NCBI GenBank assembly: GCA_903926075.1
Contig: CAIYHQ010000091.1
Span: forward strand, 1 to 53,188
Reading direction: 5' to 3'
Length of the DNA stretch: 53,188 nucleotides
Source of the DNA: an uncultured Methanomicrobiales archaeon
Lineage (GTDB): Archaea > Halobacteriota > Methanomicrobia > Methanomicrobiales > Methanospirillaceae
A program made the translations under genes and the position numbers. The notes under the pieces were generated by a model. The model made no database searches. It was not told the DNA's origin and saw only the letters and a list, made by a program, of their open reading frames with translations. Positions 32,821-39,102 of this stretch are shown piece after piece; the first letter of the stretch is position 1; the number at the start of each line of letters is the position of its first letter.

Positions 32821-33679
32821 ACCAGTGATGCTCATATCCTTTAACAGGGATAGGAGTATCATCAAGAAATACACCTTTTTTAGGAATAACTTCGCCGATA
32901 ATGTAAAATGGGAGTATTATCTCGTTTTTTAAGAAATCAGGAATTGTAAATACAAGTTCAAAATCGCCGCCTCCATATAATATCCAGCCAACTGATCGTT
33001 CTTTTGAATCAAAAGGATGCACCGGAAGCTTCTGACTATCAATCCTGAACCCTGTGTCGGATACCTCACACATGGAATAAAGTGATGACACTAGGCCGTC
33101 GCTAAGGTCCATCATCGAAGTGACTCCGGTTTCAGCAAGGATTCTCGCTTCATGAATACGTGGAACCGGTTCGAGGAGTGAATTTTCATACCTTTTAAAT
33201 CCGGCAAGAGCTGCTTCTGCACGGCCAGGCAGTCCGCTTATACATATCAGGTCCCCTGGAACTGCTCCTGACCTAAGAGTAAGGTTTCTTGTCTTAACGA
33301 CTCCAAGACCAGTACTTACTATTGTCAGTTCTTCATGATGGTCGAGGTCACCTCCTGCTATGTGTGTACCTGCGTACCTGCAACACGCAGATGCACCATT
33401 CATGATATCTTTCAGCCTTTCTGTTTTGTCAAGGCCTATTGCAAGTAACATTGCACAAGGCTTTGCACCCATCGATGCAATATCACTTAATGTCACTGCA
33501 GCAGCCATCCAGCCTATCTGCCAGTTAGTCATGTGTTCGGGAAAATCTGTGGCAGTATGCAGCATATCGGTTGATATTACAAGTGAATTTTCCCCAATTG
33601 GGATAACGTAACAGTCATCGCGGCAATTCTCTTCCCCTACGACAGATCTGACAATCGAGAGGAGGCTCTTTTCATCCAG
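32819..33679 (-). CDS. thiL: Thiamine-monophosphate kinase (apparent CTG start)
   Basis: A 286-residue kinase that converts thiamine-P to thiamine-PP. Motifs are RDDCYVIP (D21, D22, the GDDAAV position), LVISTDML, VTLSDIASMGAKP, GGDLDHHEE, LMDLSDGLVSSL and GGDFELVF. The first in-frame ATG is at 33565, but starting there would delete the catalytic acidic pair. The homologous N-terminus runs back to a DEKSLLSIVRSVVG segment. No ATG, GTG or TTG occurs in that stretch before the upstream in-frame TGA. A CTG at 33679-33677 sits where methionine is expected, with GGAGGTGA six bases before it, so CTG initiation is likely. It overlaps the DUF460 gene by eight bases. Confidence 0.85.
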   Translation of the reverse strand: MDEKSLLSIVRSVVGEENCRDDCYVIPIGENSLVISTDMLHTATDFPEHMTNWQIGWMAAAVTLSDIASMGAKPCAMLLAIGLDKTERLKDIMNGASACCRYAGTHIAGGDLDHHEELTIVSTGLGVVKTRNLTLRSGAVPGDLICISGLPGRAEAALAGFKRYENSLLEPVPRIHEARILAETGVTSMMDLSDGLVSSLYSMCEVSDTGFRIDSQKLPVHPFDSKERSVGWILYGGGDFELVFTIPDFLKNEIILPFYIIGEVIPKKGVFLDDTPIPVKGYEHHW

Positions 33680-35639
33680 TCTTCTTCACCTCCTTTCCTC
33701 GTTCAGCCTGGTATTCTTTGAAGAGGTGCTCCATCATCTCATTCTTTTTTGACTTATCGTATTCATCCTGTTCAATCTCCCATTCACGTAAAGCCCTTGC
33801 AAAAAGTTTACGGTCCACTGATCCTATCTGACCTTTCCTATCATACCGAAGGTCCGTTACCCCAAGTAAAGGGACCCTGTTTTCATGAGCTAATTCGATA
33901 AGTGAATTAGGAATCGTTGATTTATCTCCCTTTGAAATGATAATTGCCCTGACTTTCCATTGCGAGAGGTCCCGAAAACTGTTCCGGCCCCAACCAGCCT
34001 TATCCTGTATGTAAAGGATCTCTCCCTCCCTGACAGGAGATTTAGTTGAAATCTCTTTCAGGCATTCATGAGTTAGGTTAGGTAATAATTTTACAGGATC
34101 TCTTTCCTCAGATGAGTCGACTAAAAGAGAATCATTTATAGCCTTGAGTTTTTTTTGCAATCTGCGATTCTCCTTCTCTTTCTCTTTAACTCTCTCTTTT
34201 AGTCCGCGAATTGTAGATTCTTTCTTCACAATTTCAGAGTCCCTTTTAATACGGGTATCCCTTTCAGAGTGGACTCTCCGGAGCCTTCCCTGAAGCCGGG
34301 TTATCTCATAATCCTTTAGACGGTTCTCCTGTTTTAGTTCATCAATAAATCCGCGTAGTTGCTTTACTATCCCGTCGAGTACCCTCACTTTCTCATCGTT
34401 CTCCGTAAGGGTGGCAGGAGGAGTTGCGTTGAAAGTCTCAATAGTTCCGGTTTTTTGTGTAACTCCATGCAGGACCTGTTCAAGCGGGATCCCTTTGACA
34501 ATCCCTGCCTTAACTTCTTCGAGGTCATGCCCTGGTGGGACCCTCCGTAAGAGGCTTTGAAATTTCTGTCTGTAATGACGAAACGCATTAACTGCAGCCG
34601 AAAGTGCATCACGCTCATGGTCATTTTTATATGTAAATTCCGATGTCAACTCAAACTTTACAGGGACATTGATATCCTGGCGAGGGGAGTAACCTACGGC
34701 ATTGAAGGCCCTTCTGATCTTCTCGACTGAATATGGCATGGTCTGGACATCTGAAGCAATGATGAGTGGTTTTCCCACTTTATAGAGGGATTCAATTACA
34801 CCTGCGAGTGAGGTCATCCGTGAACTGTTGAGTATTACAAGATTGCCATCAAGGTCGAGAGCTGCAATTGCAGTAGTGGTACCAGGGTCCACTCCCACTA
34901 TGAGATATTTTGGTTTTGCCTTTAACGGTCTGAACTGGATCCGGTCAAGCCTCTTTCCGTCAATTCTGACCTGAACGTCAGCTTTTCTGACATTATTAAC
35001 CGGAATTTCATCCCTTAACGCAGCGACTTCAAATATGACACGGCTGCACCCACCAAAAGCCTTAACTTCCCTTTTCCTGTACCTGAGTCCGGCAGCAATT
35101 ATTGCCATCTCAATTTCGCGTGACTGCTGGAGTACGGCACCGTGGATTTTTCTAGTATACCTATTCTGGCTCCATCCGCCTTTTCCAGGGGAACGGTGCC
35201 TGCTCACAATGATTGTTGTCTCATTTTCGAACGCGACAACCTCGTATCCTGCTCCTAGCGACGCAAGGTGGGCAGTTGTCCTTGCCTCCTCAAAAGGGTT
35301 GAATTTATTAAAATGTATATTATAACGTGCTGCAATCTTCCCAAGAGATTCGAGGCGGTCTCCACCGGTAACCTGGACGAGTTTAGTACTCGTTGGAAGT
35401 GACTGCAGAAAAGAAAAAAGTTCCTTTTTCTCTGTCGAGATCTCCTGCAGACTGTCGACAGCAAGAATTTGTGGCTTTTTTGAGGTAATGAGCCTGATAA
35501 GCCGGAAAAGGGATATTTGTGACTCTTCAATAATTTCCGAATCCAGCATCTGTATCAGTGCATAGACCGGCCTTTTCGTCTTTGACCTGACCGAGCCACT
35601 GATTATATCTATTCCAAATACAAGTTTTTGGTTTTCCAT
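33672..35639 (-). CDS. DUF460 domain-containing protein (RNase H-like fold, coiled coil)
   Basis: A 655-residue archaeal protein of the DUF460/COG2433 family. An N-terminal segment (GIDIISGSVRSKTKRPVYAL) and a central RuvC/RNase H-like strand (LIVGVDPGTTTAIAALD, D251) suggest a nuclease-like core. A long charged coiled coil spans about 410-505, and the C-terminus has another domain (WKVRAIIISKGDKSTIP). The family is conserved in euryarchaea without an assigned function; a role in nucleic-acid processing is inference from the fold. It is co-oriented with rio2 upstream and thiL downstream, probably one transcript. Confidence 0.88.
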   Translation of the reverse strand: MENQKLVFGIDIISGSVRSKTKRPVYALIQMLDSEIIEESQISLFRLIRLITSKKPQILAVDSLQEISTEKKELFSFLQSLPTSTKLVQVTGGDRLESLGKIAARYNIHFNKFNPFEEARTTAHLASLGAGYEVVAFENETTIIVSRHRSPGKGGWSQNRYTRKIHGAVLQQSREIEMAIIAAGLRYRKREVKAFGGCSRVIFEVAALRDEIPVNNVRKADVQVRIDGKRLDRIQFRPLKAKPKYLIVGVDPGTTTAIAALDLDGNLVILNSSRMTSLAGVIESLYKVGKPLIIASDVQTMPYSVEKIRRAFNAVGYSPRQDINVPVKFELTSEFTYKNDHERDALSAAVNAFRHYRQKFQSLLRRVPPGHDLEEVKAGIVKGIPLEQVLHGVTQKTGTIETFNATPPATLTENDEKVRVLDGIVKQLRGFIDELKQENRLKDYEITRLQGRLRRVHSERDTRIKRDSEIVKKESTIRGLKERVKEKEKENRRLQKKLKAINDSLLVDSSEERDPVKLLPNLTHECLKEISTKSPVREGEILYIQDKAGWGRNSFRDLSQWKVRAIIISKGDKSTIPNSLIELAHENRVPLLGVTDLRYDRKGQIGSVDRKLFARALREWEIEQDEYDKSKKNEMMEHLFKEYQAERGKEVKKTG

Positions 35640-35679: not shown

Positions 35680-36540
35680 TTATTTTCCCTGCACCCTCTT
35701 TTTTACAGTTTCAGGGTCTTTAGTTATTAAATATTTTTTTCTGAAAAAGTTTAAGAGGTTTCTGATATCTGCCGTTAATACATCATCTGCATTTGGGTGT
35801 GATGTCTCTATCCATTGTGGCCAGTCAATTATCACAGGACCCTTTTCATCGATCATAATATTGTATTCACTTAAATCGCCGTGTATTACTCCTTTTCCAA
35901 ATGCGCAGGCAATATTCTCTATTAAAAATTCAAGGGCTCCCTCTGGTTCGAGAAGGATTACCGAGTTCATGGTCCTTCCAAATACCTGGGACATCACAAT
36001 TGTATTTCGTGAAATATCAATAGGAATTGGAACTCGTACCTCTGGGTGAAGTCTCTTTAATGCATTATATTCCCTTTCAGCTGAAAATTTTGAAGCGATG
36101 ACCCATGGGAGGTGGCCGCTTTCCGGAAGATAATCCCTGACAAGACGCACGTTATGGAAAGACCTATTTCCGATGTGATGAAATTTCAGAATTACCGGGC
36201 CAAAACCGAATGCCTCGTATACAACAGACTCCTTACCCTCTCCAATAATATCTCCCAGGGACTGGACTGTTCCATGGCGCACAATAGTCGAAAGTGCAAG
36301 CGTGTCATATCCTGTATAAAGAAGAGAACAACCTTCGTATGGAGTCGTGTTCAGTTTGACAAGCCCTTTCTCTGCAAGAAGTTCCAGTCTGAACCAGGTC
36401 TTGACTTTTGATTCATGAGTAAGCCGGATAAGTTCTTTCACAGGGACCCATTCGTGATAGTGCATCAGCTCTTCAGTGATACGCAGGAGTTTCATCTCAC
36501 CAGATTTCAGGTTTTTTACAATCCCCGGATTAACAGCCAT
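35680..36540 (-). CDS. rio2: RIO2-type serine/threonine protein kinase
   Basis: A 286-residue atypical kinase/ATPase for late small-subunit ribosome maturation. The N-terminal winged helix (about 1-80) is specific to RIO2. The kinase part has the flexible P-loop IGEGKESVVYEA (99-110), K119, catalytic D222 in VIHGDLSEYNIMI and metal-binding D239 in VIIDWPQWI. It is the first gene of the rio2-DUF460-thiL unit. It is divergent from the gene at 36593 with 52 bases between them. Confidence 0.95.
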   Translation of the reverse strand: MAVNPGIVKNLKSGEMKLLRITEELMHYHEWVPVKELIRLTHESKVKTWFRLELLAEKGLVKLNTTPYEGCSLLYTGYDTLALSTIVRHGTVQSLGDIIGEGKESVVYEAFGFGPVILKFHHIGNRSFHNVRLVRDYLPESGHLPWVIASKFSAEREYNALKRLHPEVRVPIPIDISRNTIVMSQVFGRTMNSVILLEPEGALEFLIENIACAFGKGVIHGDLSEYNIMIDEKGPVIIDWPQWIETSHPNADDVLTADIRNLLNFFRKKYLITKDPETVKKRVQGK

Positions 36541-36592: not shown

Positions 36593-37360
36593 ATGCAGTG
36601 CAGCAGGTGTAAGAGAGAAGCCATTTTGACTCAGAAATACTCTGGAGTTTCATTGTGCGGGCAACACCTGATTTCAGATATTGAAATGAAGGGAAAGTAC
36701 TGCATAAGGCAGGAAAAAGGGATAGTTCCACGAAGTACGATCGCGCTTGCAACTGGTGGAGGAGTAGCAAGTCTGTCACTTCTCGTTCTTCTCTCAAAAA
36801 TTCTTTTAAAGAGAAATGATATCCGCTTTATCGTAATCTCTATCGTTGGGCAGGTTTTAGAGAATTCAGAGAAATCCTGGTTAAACGACTATTGCGGAAA
36901 AAATGCAATTGAAATCTTTTTTCATAAAAGAGATGATATAAAATATTCTCTGTTATCAGAATTGACTCATTTTGCTGAAATCCATAACGCCCGTAAAGTT
37001 GCGCTTGGCCTCACTCTTGACGATTTCGCGTTTGACATGCTGAAAGAAACCTTTTTATTAGAACCTGAGTATTTTGGATTTAAAGAAAAAAATTCTCTTT
37101 TTATAGCACCTTTCCAGGCGATACCATTTGAAGAAATCAGTATTTATAACTCAATAATGGAAATAAACCCCGATTCATTTCAAAAAAGGAATAAAGCCGA
37201 ATTAATGGAGTCAGATGAGTTCATCAGAGACATTGAATCTTTGCTCAATCAATATTCAGAGAAACACCCGTCTACACCATTTGCCCTGCTTGGATTACGC
37301 AGGTCTTTATCCTTGCTTGCCGGAAATAAGATTAAACCAGAGAATCCGAATAATAACTAA
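36593..37360 (+). CDS. TtuA/NcsA-like protein with zinc finger but degenerate PP-loop
   Basis: A 255-residue relative of the TtuA/NcsA/Ncs6 tRNA-thiolation ATPases. The N-terminal zinc finger is intact (C3, C6, C22, H25). The P-loop position reads TGGGVASL at 54-61 instead of SGGKDS, with the Asp and Ser lost. The helix where the family has GHNLDD reads LGLTLDDFAFDML. It is also shorter than active members (about 300 residues) and lacks the usual C-terminal CxxC zinc finger. A nucleotide-binding enzyme role is therefore doubtful; it may be a partner or regulator of a true thiolase encoded elsewhere. It starts 52 bases from rio2 on the other strand, with AACTG spacing but no clear Shine-Dalgarno site. 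Confidence 0.7.
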   Translation: MQCSRCKREAILTQKYSGVSLCGQHLISDIEMKGKYCIRQEKGIVPRSTIALATGGGVASLSLLVLLSKILLKRNDIRFIVISIVGQVLENSEKSWLNDYCGKNAIEIFFHKRDDIKYSLLSELTHFAEIHNARKVALGLTLDDFAFDMLKETFLLEPEYFGFKEKNSLFIAPFQAIPFEEISIYNSIMEINPDSFQKRNKAELMESDEFIRDIESLLNQYSEKHPSTPFALLGLRRSLSLLAGNKIKPENPNNN

Positions 37361-37395: not shown

Positions 37396-39102
37396 ATGGG
37401 TGACAGAAAAGGGCTTATCTGGCGGCAGATTAAAAGTTCTCCTGCAGTCAGGTTTGGTATTTATATCGCAGTATTCTGCTTTTTCATCCTCTTTTACACA
37501 ACCCTGTTCTTTGATCTCTATCCAATACTGGAAAATAAACCAATAACATTGGTTCAGGCACTCCTTTTTGTGATAGAGTCTGTATCAACGACCGGGTACG
37601 GTGAGATCCTTCCGTTTCATAACGAACTGACGAATATCTTTGCGATAACAATGGTCATAACCGGGGTTATTCTCATCTTCATGATAATTCCCCTGCTGCT
37701 CGCTCCATACCTGAAATCCTTAATTGAATCAAATGCCCCGAAGCGGACTCCGCATAAACTCTTCCAGCACCTGATTATTGTCGGGTTCTCAGAGTTCACC
37801 CTGTCCCTCATAGAGAGTATGATGATTTCAGACCATGAGATTGTCATTGTCGTTGAATCTGAACAGACTGCAGTAGCCCTTGCGCGCCGTTACTGGAAGA
37901 GGGCATACGTTATCTGGGGAGACTTTAATGATATCCAGACCTGGCGGAATGCCTGGATTGAAACTGCAGGGACTATTGTTGTTTCACTTGAAGAGCGGAT
38001 TGCCGCAAAATTGATTCTCGGAATTAAAAATGAGACTGCAGGCAAAGTAATTGCAGTCGTCGATAAAATTGCCTATGAGCGGTATCTCAGGTATGCAGGG
38101 TGCGAATATGTCCTGTCTCCTAAAAATCTTACAGGAAAAATTATTGCAAGACACGCAGTCCTGACCTCACATATTGAGAACTCCCTCCCCTCATCAGCAA
38201 TTGATGATATACCGGTCAGATATGAGATGGATGCAGGGAGTTCTCTTCGGCTTATTCACATACCTATCATGCCTGGATGCAGGGCTGCAGGAAAGACCCT
38301 GGGTGAACTCTCTTTGTTTCAAAAATATGGATATCACCCCCTGTTTCTCACAAGACTGGGCGATTTCAATTTTTTTCCAAAAGAGAGTGAAGAACTTGAC
38401 CCCTCCACTCTCCTGTTTCTCATTGGAAAAGCTGAGTCTCTTAAAGATCTTGTTGACAATGAATTTGTATGCACCCAGACAGAAAAATTTCTCGCGGTCA
38501 TTGCAGGATTTGGGGATGTTGGTCAGGCCGCATACCAGGAACTTTCACATCTTGGTATAAGTTGTGTAGTTATTGATAGAAAGCCCCACCCTGTTACTGA
38601 AATTATTGGAAACGCAGAGGACGAGGCAGTTTTAAAGCAGGCGCATATTGAAGAGGCAATGTTTCTTGTTGTCGCACTAAATGATGACACTTTGAATATA
38701 TTCACTACTCTAATTGCGAGGGACTTAAACCCGTCATTAAGGATACTTGCCCGGGCTAATGAACCTTCATCAGTGGATAAATTATACAGGGCGGGTGCTG
38801 ACTATGTGGCGCTTCTCCCAAAAATAGGCGGCCAGGTTGTAGGGGGTGTCATTCTCGCTGATACTGCCCGTGTAATCCTTGACCTTCCTCTCGGAAAGAA
38901 GGTGGTTATGAAACGTATGATGTATAGGAGCGGTGTTAATGTCGGGTGGCTTGAAAAAAAGGCTGGAATAAAAGTTATTGGTATTGAAGGAGGCTTAAGA
39001 TCTACAGTAATGCCCAATCCCGAAGAACAACTTTTCGAAGGTTCACTGATACTTGGTATAGGGGATGCACCCTCAATAAAAAAATTTATTCGTCTGATCT
39101 AA
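37396..39102 (+). CDS. Potassium channel / TrkA-domain protein
   Basis: A 568-residue membrane protein with two transmembrane helices (about 21-43 and 80-103) flanking a pore loop. The selectivity filter is TTGYGE (65-70). Two cytoplasmic RCK (TrkA-N plus TrkA-C) units follow, at about 120-330 and 345-568 (IIVGFSEF and VIAGFGDVG dinucleotide-binding loops). This is the MthK-like two-RCK layout for ligand-gated K+ flux. GGTGG about eight bases upstream supports the ATG. It lies 35 bases after the TtuA-like gene, so the two may be co-transcribed. Confidence 0.9.
   Translation: MGDRKGLIWRQIKSSPAVRFGIYIAVFCFFILFYTTLFFDLYPILENKPITLVQALLFVIESVSTTGYGEILPFHNELTNIFAITMVITGVILIFMIIPLLLAPYLKSLIESNAPKRTPHKLFQHLIIVGFSEFTLSLIESMMISDHEIVIVVESEQTAVALARRYWKRAYVIWGDFNDIQTWRNAWIETAGTIVVSLEERIAAKLILGIKNETAGKVIAVVDKIAYERYLRYAGCEYVLSPKNLTGKIIARHAVLTSHIENSLPSSAIDDIPVRYEMDAGSSLRLIHIPIMPGCRAAGKTLGELSLFQKYGYHPLFLTRLGDFNFFPKESEELDPSTLLFLIGKAESLKDLVDNEFVCTQTEKFLAVIAGFGDVGQAAYQELSHLGISCVVIDRKPHPVTEIIGNAEDEAVLKQAHIEEAMFLVVALNDDTLNIFTTLIARDLNPSLRILARANEPSSVDKLYRAGADYVALLPKIGGQVVGGVILADTARVILDLPLGKKVVMKRMMYRSGVNVGWLEKKAGIKVIGIEGGLRSTVMPNPEEQLFEGSLILGIGDAPSIKKFIRLI

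Follow-up and report, generated by a model that had tools for sequence, protein, structure and literature searches.

How does a gene outlast the enzyme that it once encoded? This question is raised by a gene, here called A, in the window, that is, the whole stretch of 53,188 nucleotides of DNA from an uncultured Methanomicrobiales archaeon that was analysed. The original prediction assigned A to the family of the tRNA thiolases NcsA and TtuA, held that it has lost its PP-loop and other parts of its active site while keeping an intact zinc finger and an undamaged frame, and proposed that it may have become a partner or regulator in tRNA thiolation. The follow-up compares A with a second NcsA-type gene, B, and leads to the reading that A serves B without catalysing anything itself, as an adaptor or a subunit like Ctu2/Ncs2, and that such proteins would have evolved repeatedly in archaea. 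The probability of this reading is put at about one half.

The open reading frame of A starts with ATG, has zero internal stops and encodes 255 aa, as foreseen for a maintained gene, and the intact zinc finger at the N-terminus is confirmed at residues 3–25. The PP-loop SGGKDS is lost, reading GGGVAS (residues 55–60; S55G, K58V and D59A) within TGGGVASL. Other active-site segments are likewise changed or gapped in the family alignment, with V-G-Q at D85-E86-G87, S at R92, a gap at C134/C137, K at C223 and I at R231. All three [4Fe-4S] cysteines (CxxC and CPY) are consequently missing. The C-terminal zinc finger is also absent, since the protein ends at residue 255 without CxxC pairs.

The family assignment is borne out, for NcsA rather than TtuA. 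Among Pfam models, TtuA_LIM_N matches A above its cut-off (33.2 vs 27 bits) and ATP_bind_3 only below it (E 0.14). The NCBIfam models are weak tests, as the tested canonical A also falls short of them: A scores 39.2 bits for NcsA (NF047749, cut-off 500; canonical 204) and 22.3 bits for TtuA (NF049949, cut-off 450; canonical 132). The AlphaFold model of A (pLDDT 83.5, pTM 0.82) has the NcsA fold, with Methanococcus maripaludis NcsA as its best structural match (6scy_B, Z 24.2, 2.6 Å, 234 residues), and this rejects the possibility that A bears no structural similarity to the family. TtuA chains match less well (Z 19.0–20.2), which, together with the low NCBIfam TtuA score, rejects A as a TtuA orthologue. 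A is therefore of the NcsA lineage by descent and, judged by its residues, a non-enzyme.

The genomic setting agrees with this descent. The gene is part of a conserved series, DUF460–RIO2–A–TrkA–GPI (Table 1), and RIO2 or DUF460 is found near 28/30 canonical and 27/28 degenerate loci examined. The gene in the window is therefore the positional orthologue of the canonical NcsA of its relatives. An NcsA-family match is present in 60 of 61 genomes (its own and 60 relatives). One genome, G368, carries two degenerate A copies (L380 and L381) besides B.

Table 1. Coordinates in the window of A, its motifs and its neighbours
Feature	Position	Strand	Pfam
Degenerate NcsA orthologue A, 255 aa, PP-loop and Fe-S cysteines lost	36593..37360	+	
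N-terminal zinc finger C3-C6...C22-H25 (CSRC...LCGQH), residues 3-25	36599..36667	+	
Q-x-Y-S-G motif inside the zinc finger, Q14-G18	36632-36646	+	
TGGGVASL, remnant of PP-loop SGGKDS, residues 54-61	36752..36775	+	
PFxxIPxxE segment, kept; P173 and E181 invariant in 26 degenerate A	37109..37135	+	
C-terminal HP motif, kept; H225-P226 invariant in 26 degenerate A	37259..37288	+	
RIO2 kinase, divergent neighbour, conserved A neighbourhood	35680..36540	-	RIO1, Rio2_N
DUF460 protein, conserved A neighbourhood	33672..35639	-	DUF460
TrkA/ion-channel protein downstream of A, adjoining A in many other genomes	37396..39102	+	TrkA_N, TrkA_C

A canonical relative does exist elsewhere in the same genome. 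This paralogue, B, lies on contig C69 (G000:C69; 603-1415 of L103, minus strand) and has SGGKDS, ACAIC and CPY. It matches ATP_bind_3 and not TtuA_LIM_N in Pfam, while one canonical A matches both. With 271 aa, this copy of B is short. Nearly all other B have a C-terminal zinc finger, which it lacks, so that neither paralogue of the window's genome carries one.

Orthologues that share the loss exist in quantity, and their state follows the presence of B. Here, A is called degenerate when it lacks the exact string SGGKDS, so that the early loss of the PP-loop is to some extent a consequence of the definition; independently of it, none of the 66 A with an intact PP-loop has lost C134 or C137. 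Among genomes of the order that are at least 90% complete, B is present in 77/135. A is degenerate in 69 of these 77, canonical in 7 and not found in one (G406), while in the 58 genomes without B, it is canonical in 56 and degenerate in 2 (G053 and G369). The scripted count gave 68 degenerate and 7 canonical with B, 2 degenerate and 55 canonical without B, and 3 unread (Fisher p 1e-26); counting G388 after inspection by eye, and G364 because the canonical L193 comes from it, gives the totals of 69, 7, 2 and 56. Order-wide, B is found in 69/71 genomes with degenerate A, the window's genome included. These surveys located A by its zinc-finger motif in 131/135 genomes, a procedure that favours copies keeping that motif; of the four genomes missed, three have A by profile and G406 has none.

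A second set, of 107 genomes with readable A, gives 36 degenerate and 9 canonical with B, and 3 degenerate and 59 canonical without. It combines named, unnamed and less complete genomes with duplicates removed. Two outgroup MAGs (L216 and L221) are counted among its canonical rows without B, its canonical rows include G029 (partial) and L194 (truncated), and L161 is counted as having B from a fragment at a contig end. Left out were G009 (a contig without the PP-loop region), G017 and G058 (A not found) and 16 named loci with A in a genome of the first set. A partly independent scan covering 80 of 120 relatives found B in the genomes of 11/13 named loci with degenerate A, once as a fragment, and in those of 5/37 canonical named loci tested, once with an in-frame stop. 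The two degenerate loci without B, L143 and L148, belong to close relatives of the B-bearing L145. Since canonical A stands beside B in 9/107, B does not force the loss of A. The presence of the paralogue predicts, in many lineages, the change of a resident enzyme into a retained pseudoenzyme.

The same association is seen when kinship is taken into account. A quick tree built from two genes (RIO2 and DUF460, 105 rows), in which some rows, including that of the window, are long, needs a minimum of 16 changes in the state of A and of 22 in that of B when unsupported branches are counted; G001 and L182 have no marker genes for this tree. Eleven independent pairs on supported branches differ in A; on average, B differs in the same direction in 7.6 of them and in the opposite direction in 0.2, and is alike in both members in 3.2 (median p 0.016, range 0.002–0.125). 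With B as the first trait, 16 pairs give 6.7, 0.0 and 9.3, respectively (median p 0.016). Several of the changes look recent, with canonical sister genomes within Methanoculleus and Methanoregulaceae.

Degenerate A and B have each kept a different one of two sets of conserved residues. The alignment examined comprises 66 canonical and 39 degenerate A together with 45 B and 17 outgroup NcsA, and in it canonical A and the outgroups possess both sets. All 39 degenerate A keep C3, C6, Q14, Y16, S17, G18, C22, H25, R39, P173, E181, H225 and P226; the retention of those from C3 to R39 in 39/39 aligned orthologues excludes chance. Thirteen columns are invariant across 26 divergent degenerate copies. 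The Q-x-Y-S-G motif, present in A and outgroup NcsA, is mostly gone from B: the fractions kept in degenerate A and B are 1.0 and 0.04 for Q14, 1.0 and 0 for Y16, 1.0 and 0.29 for S17, 1.0 and 0.42 for G18, 1.0 and 0.20 for R39, and 0.92 and 0.18 for R74. All six of these residues stand in 36/39 degenerate A and five in the other 3/39, while no B (45/45) has more than three. The reverse holds for K58 (0.13 in degenerate A, 1.0 in B), D59 (0.08, 1.0), C134 (0.41, 1.0), C137 (0.33, 1.0) and R231 (0.13, 1.0). B keeps SGGKDS, DEGI, R92, CxxC, CPY and R231 at 100%, and K35 at only 4%; degenerate A keeps N173 in 15% and R195 in 18% (both, like R231, in canonical numbering).

Summed over columns, degenerate A has on average lost 49% of the 39 columns that B keeps and 18% of the 15 that B has lost and that are conserved in canonical A and outgroups. 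Both column sets are defined on B, whose own losses of 1% and 73% thus arise by construction, and only degenerate A provides a test. The split is not perfect: degenerate A, too, has drifted at five of the 15 B-lost columns (F26 0.62, T120 0.38, V207 0.64, A208 0.41 and L209 0.72), and both proteins retain the zinc ligands and a few prolines.

The surface retained by A is widespread in the phylum. Among NcsA of other families, YSG stands in 39 of 45 read, all 39 of which also have R39, and the remaining six read YNG, HSG (two), YAG, HAN and HSN. Q14 and YSG occur together in 25/45; sequences of the haloarchaeal type do not have this combination. YSG is absent from three second copies in other families, which score low and are taken to be TtuA-type. 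The residue split points to a second NcsA surface (Q-x-Y-S-G, R39 and R74) that is apart from catalysis; the passages available from the cited NcsA and CTU2 literature contain no description of it.

The best explanation for these patterns is a split thiolase. The ancestral NcsA of the lineage, the tRNA U34 thiolase, would have turned into a non-catalytic subunit or adaptor, A, with adenylation and sulfur transfer taken over by B. A and B would together form one enzyme, since B has lost most of the NcsA-typical zinc-finger and helix residues that A retains. To this enzyme, B would contribute the PP-loop, the [4Fe-4S] cysteines and a U34-type pocket, while A would provide the HP motif and, together with R39/R74, the zinc-finger surface that carries Q-x-Y-S-G, to place the tRNA or to dock partners. 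The simplest architecture, one also proposed for Ctu1/Ctu2, would be an A–B heterodimer on the plan of the NcsA homodimer, which it would probably replace. The pair would be an independent and repeated counterpart of eukaryotic Ctu1/Ctu2. Matched by motif, E86, R92 and R231 of B are three of the four NcsA-like residues named in the available part of PMC10067955, and because B keeps these U34-type residues, a chemistry like the former one of A is plausible for it. Most of the NcsA-type zinc-finger surface is lacking from every aligned copy of B, even those in genomes with canonical A, so that an A-type protein may always have been needed for B to work. The available text of the plant CTU2 paper, in which only CTU1 binds tRNA (PMC4014090), does not favour a tRNA-placing A.

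The complementary residue pattern strengthens the proposed partnership in tRNA thiolation. The partnership itself, together with the binding of A to B, the thiolation of U34 by the pair and the role of the retained surface, is what we infer from the orthology of A, its losses and retentions, its NcsA fold, the presence of B in the same genome, the co-occurrence and the complementarity, all of which come from sequence. More generally, there is a slightly less than even chance that a two-subunit U34 thiolase, catalytic subunit plus pseudoenzyme, arose many times in this one order, an acquired B turning the resident NcsA Ctu2-like and the ancestral functions being divided between the two.

An unlikely alternative, which accounts for the co-occurrence, complementarity and retention about equally well, is that A has a separate, non-thiolating role and forms no complex with B. 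A single-copy NcsA would then do both jobs, only thiolation would shift to an incoming B, and A would persist through its zinc finger and YSG/R39 surface, for instance by scaffolding a sulfur carrier or a protein of translation or RNA processing. The associations of Haloferax NcsA with UbaA, SAMP2, PAN-A/1, aEF-1alpha and aCPSF1, given in the available part of PMC4048286, fit such a role, as does the fact that A stays beside RIO2/DUF460 and B sits elsewhere, away from the A block. However, if B reaches the same substrate alone, the loss of most of its NcsA-type surface in 45/45 copies is left unexplained.

Selection on A bears on a further possibility, namely that A is a redundant gene in slow decay, its catalytic part drifting and the gene eroding after the arrival of B. 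The dN/dS comparison recommended by the original prediction gives a divided result. Omega (NG86) is relaxed overall, at 0.21–0.54 in 11 degenerate pairs vs 0.06–0.19 in 10 full-length canonical pairs, with RIO2 at 0.05–0.20 for the same pairs where computable and a partial eleventh canonical pair at 0.50 (dS 0.018); the degenerate pairs share some members, and several have an unreliable dS >1. Residues 1–42 of the degenerate pairs are clearly under purifying selection (omega about 0–0.26, against about 0.19–0.56 for the remainder). Thus, the zinc-finger part of A is still constrained, and the former catalytic part is relaxed. Erosion runs from one changed site (L181) to 30/39 B-conserved sites (G026 and G027), early PP-loop stages reading SGGEES and SGGKNS, and YSG is altered in three degenerate A (YAG in G342 and G345, SSG in G388). 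A is not strictly indispensable, because G406 (96% complete, 2 contigs) has none by motif or profile and the A of G405 (L354, G405:C1:1020700-1022150) has a frame that breaks after 118 aa; these two genomes, of genus g5, possibly represent the first steps towards total loss of A.

The relaxed omega, the variable C-termini, the erosion gradient and the two genomes of genus g5 are all as slow decay would have it. Yet A is found in 76/77 B-bearing genomes at least 90% complete, including 19/19 in family f6, and invariant columns, constraint on residues 1–42 and non-random losses that spare one residue set all speak against decay, which is improbable as the general account. An isolated decaying copy is rejected, given the 76/77 and a loss common to orthologues. 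Orthologues with canonical PP-loops, which the original prediction had named as a sign of decay, do occur in nearly all genomes without B; most genomes with B retain the degenerate copy, and therefore simple decay is not the best reading.

The history of B appears to involve transfer between lineages within the order. B forms a single clade (45/45 rows, 100*), with no supported position in the tree relative to A and the outgroups. Its branching departs from that of the species. G048 belongs to family f3, but its B groups with the one from the Methanoregulaceae record L190, and in family f6 (L205, Methanocalculus) B adjoins Methanoculleus B. Methanocalculus chunghsingensis strain K1F9705b carries a B (L232) as well as a degenerate A (L205). 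As an alternative, B may be an older duplicate that was repeatedly lost. In 246 genomes of the phylum, no gene outside the order scores above 380.4 bits for the B profile; the cut is not clean, as most B score 391–471 bits and three within the order 359–381. Family f8, presumably Methanosarcinaceae and not of this order, does contain one B-like gene (L295, G138:C1:957900-961000). It has an in-frame TAG ahead of the C-terminal zinc finger, which could mark a broken gene or a pyrrolysine codon. Single in-frame stops in three copies of B (L224 on G094:C65, G390:C724 and G340:C175) are either assembly errors or broken genes. Outside the order, G157 (family f14) has two NcsA-type genes with intact PP-loops, L298 (G157:C122:5630-6532), which reads YNG where YSG is expected, and L292 (G157:C187); this pair is perhaps a similar split at an early stage.

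The surroundings of B differ from those of A. At least one of NadA, FdhD, a class-V aminotransferase (which we take to be of the desulfurase type), ThiF, NifU_N, YcaO and TfuA lies within about 5 kb of 27/32 B loci (L103–L134) and of 0/58 A loci. NadA, an Fe-S enzyme of NAD synthesis, is not strictly a sulfur gene. B may draw on a sulfur supply derived from cysteine, or be transferred together with one. NifU_N was detected in 28/32 genomes with B and 14/29 without (61 searched), which is suggestive but confounded by kinship, and the arrival of a NifU-type sulfur/Fe-S system as the sole cause is rejected. It is very improbable that B thiolates another tRNA position or molecule and that the inactivation of A means a loss of U34 thiolation in lineages happening to carry B: the missing YSG motif, as in the three presumed TtuA-type second copies, and the frequent sulfur-related neighbours would suit such a target, but B keeps the NcsA- rather than TtuA-like residues noted above (PMC10067955, available part), the tested B scores 206 bits for the NcsA model vs 137 for the TtuA model, and the tie to the state of A would lack an explanation.

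If the split-thiolase reading is true, these lineages constitute a replicated natural experiment on the origin of Ctu1/Ctu2. If A and B do form a complex, biochemistry would also have small archaeal proteins to work with that span all stages of the conversion, some with a single PP-loop change and others with the active site fully lost. Among the titles and abstract beginnings covered, which mostly exclude subscription papers, none describes a degenerate NcsA, or a second one, in Methanomicrobiales.

Among known systems, TtuA, the tRNA m5U54 thiolase, shares with A the fold and a LIM-type zinc finger (Pfam TtuA_LIM_N), but the TtuA sequences compared have no YSG and are structurally further from the A model. 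NcsA (M. maripaludis 6scy, Haloferax HVO_0580) shares the fold, the N-terminal zinc finger and YSG/R39, and A occupies the locus orthologous to that of canonical NcsA. Unlike NcsA, A lacks the PP-loop, the [4Fe-4S] cysteines and the C-terminal zinc finger, and by its sequence, it cannot be catalytic. In its available part, PMC10067955 describes archaeal U34 thiolation as the work of a single dimeric NcsA, reports that a Ctu1/Ctu2 model superposes on the NcsA homodimer, and states that the human complex had, as of 2023, neither been purified nor had its stoichiometry confirmed. Ctu2/Ncs2, the eukaryotic partner of Ctu1/Ncs6, offers a parallel. Like A, it is a degenerate NcsA-family paralogue beside a catalytic one, and it has lost the Fe-S cysteines and kept the zinc-finger sites (PMC10067955, same part); a Pfam scan of A at E up to 10, covering Pfam models only, gave no Ctu2 family match. 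CTU2 is called a scaffold in the accessible text of PMC11661634, and the loosening of the plant CTU2 PP-loop to SGGXXS, described in the passages available from PMC4014090, is reminiscent of the early archaeal stages SGGEES and SGGKNS. In contrast to Ctu2/Ncs2, A is archaeal and recurrent, and its putative catalytic partner has apparently been passed between lineages.
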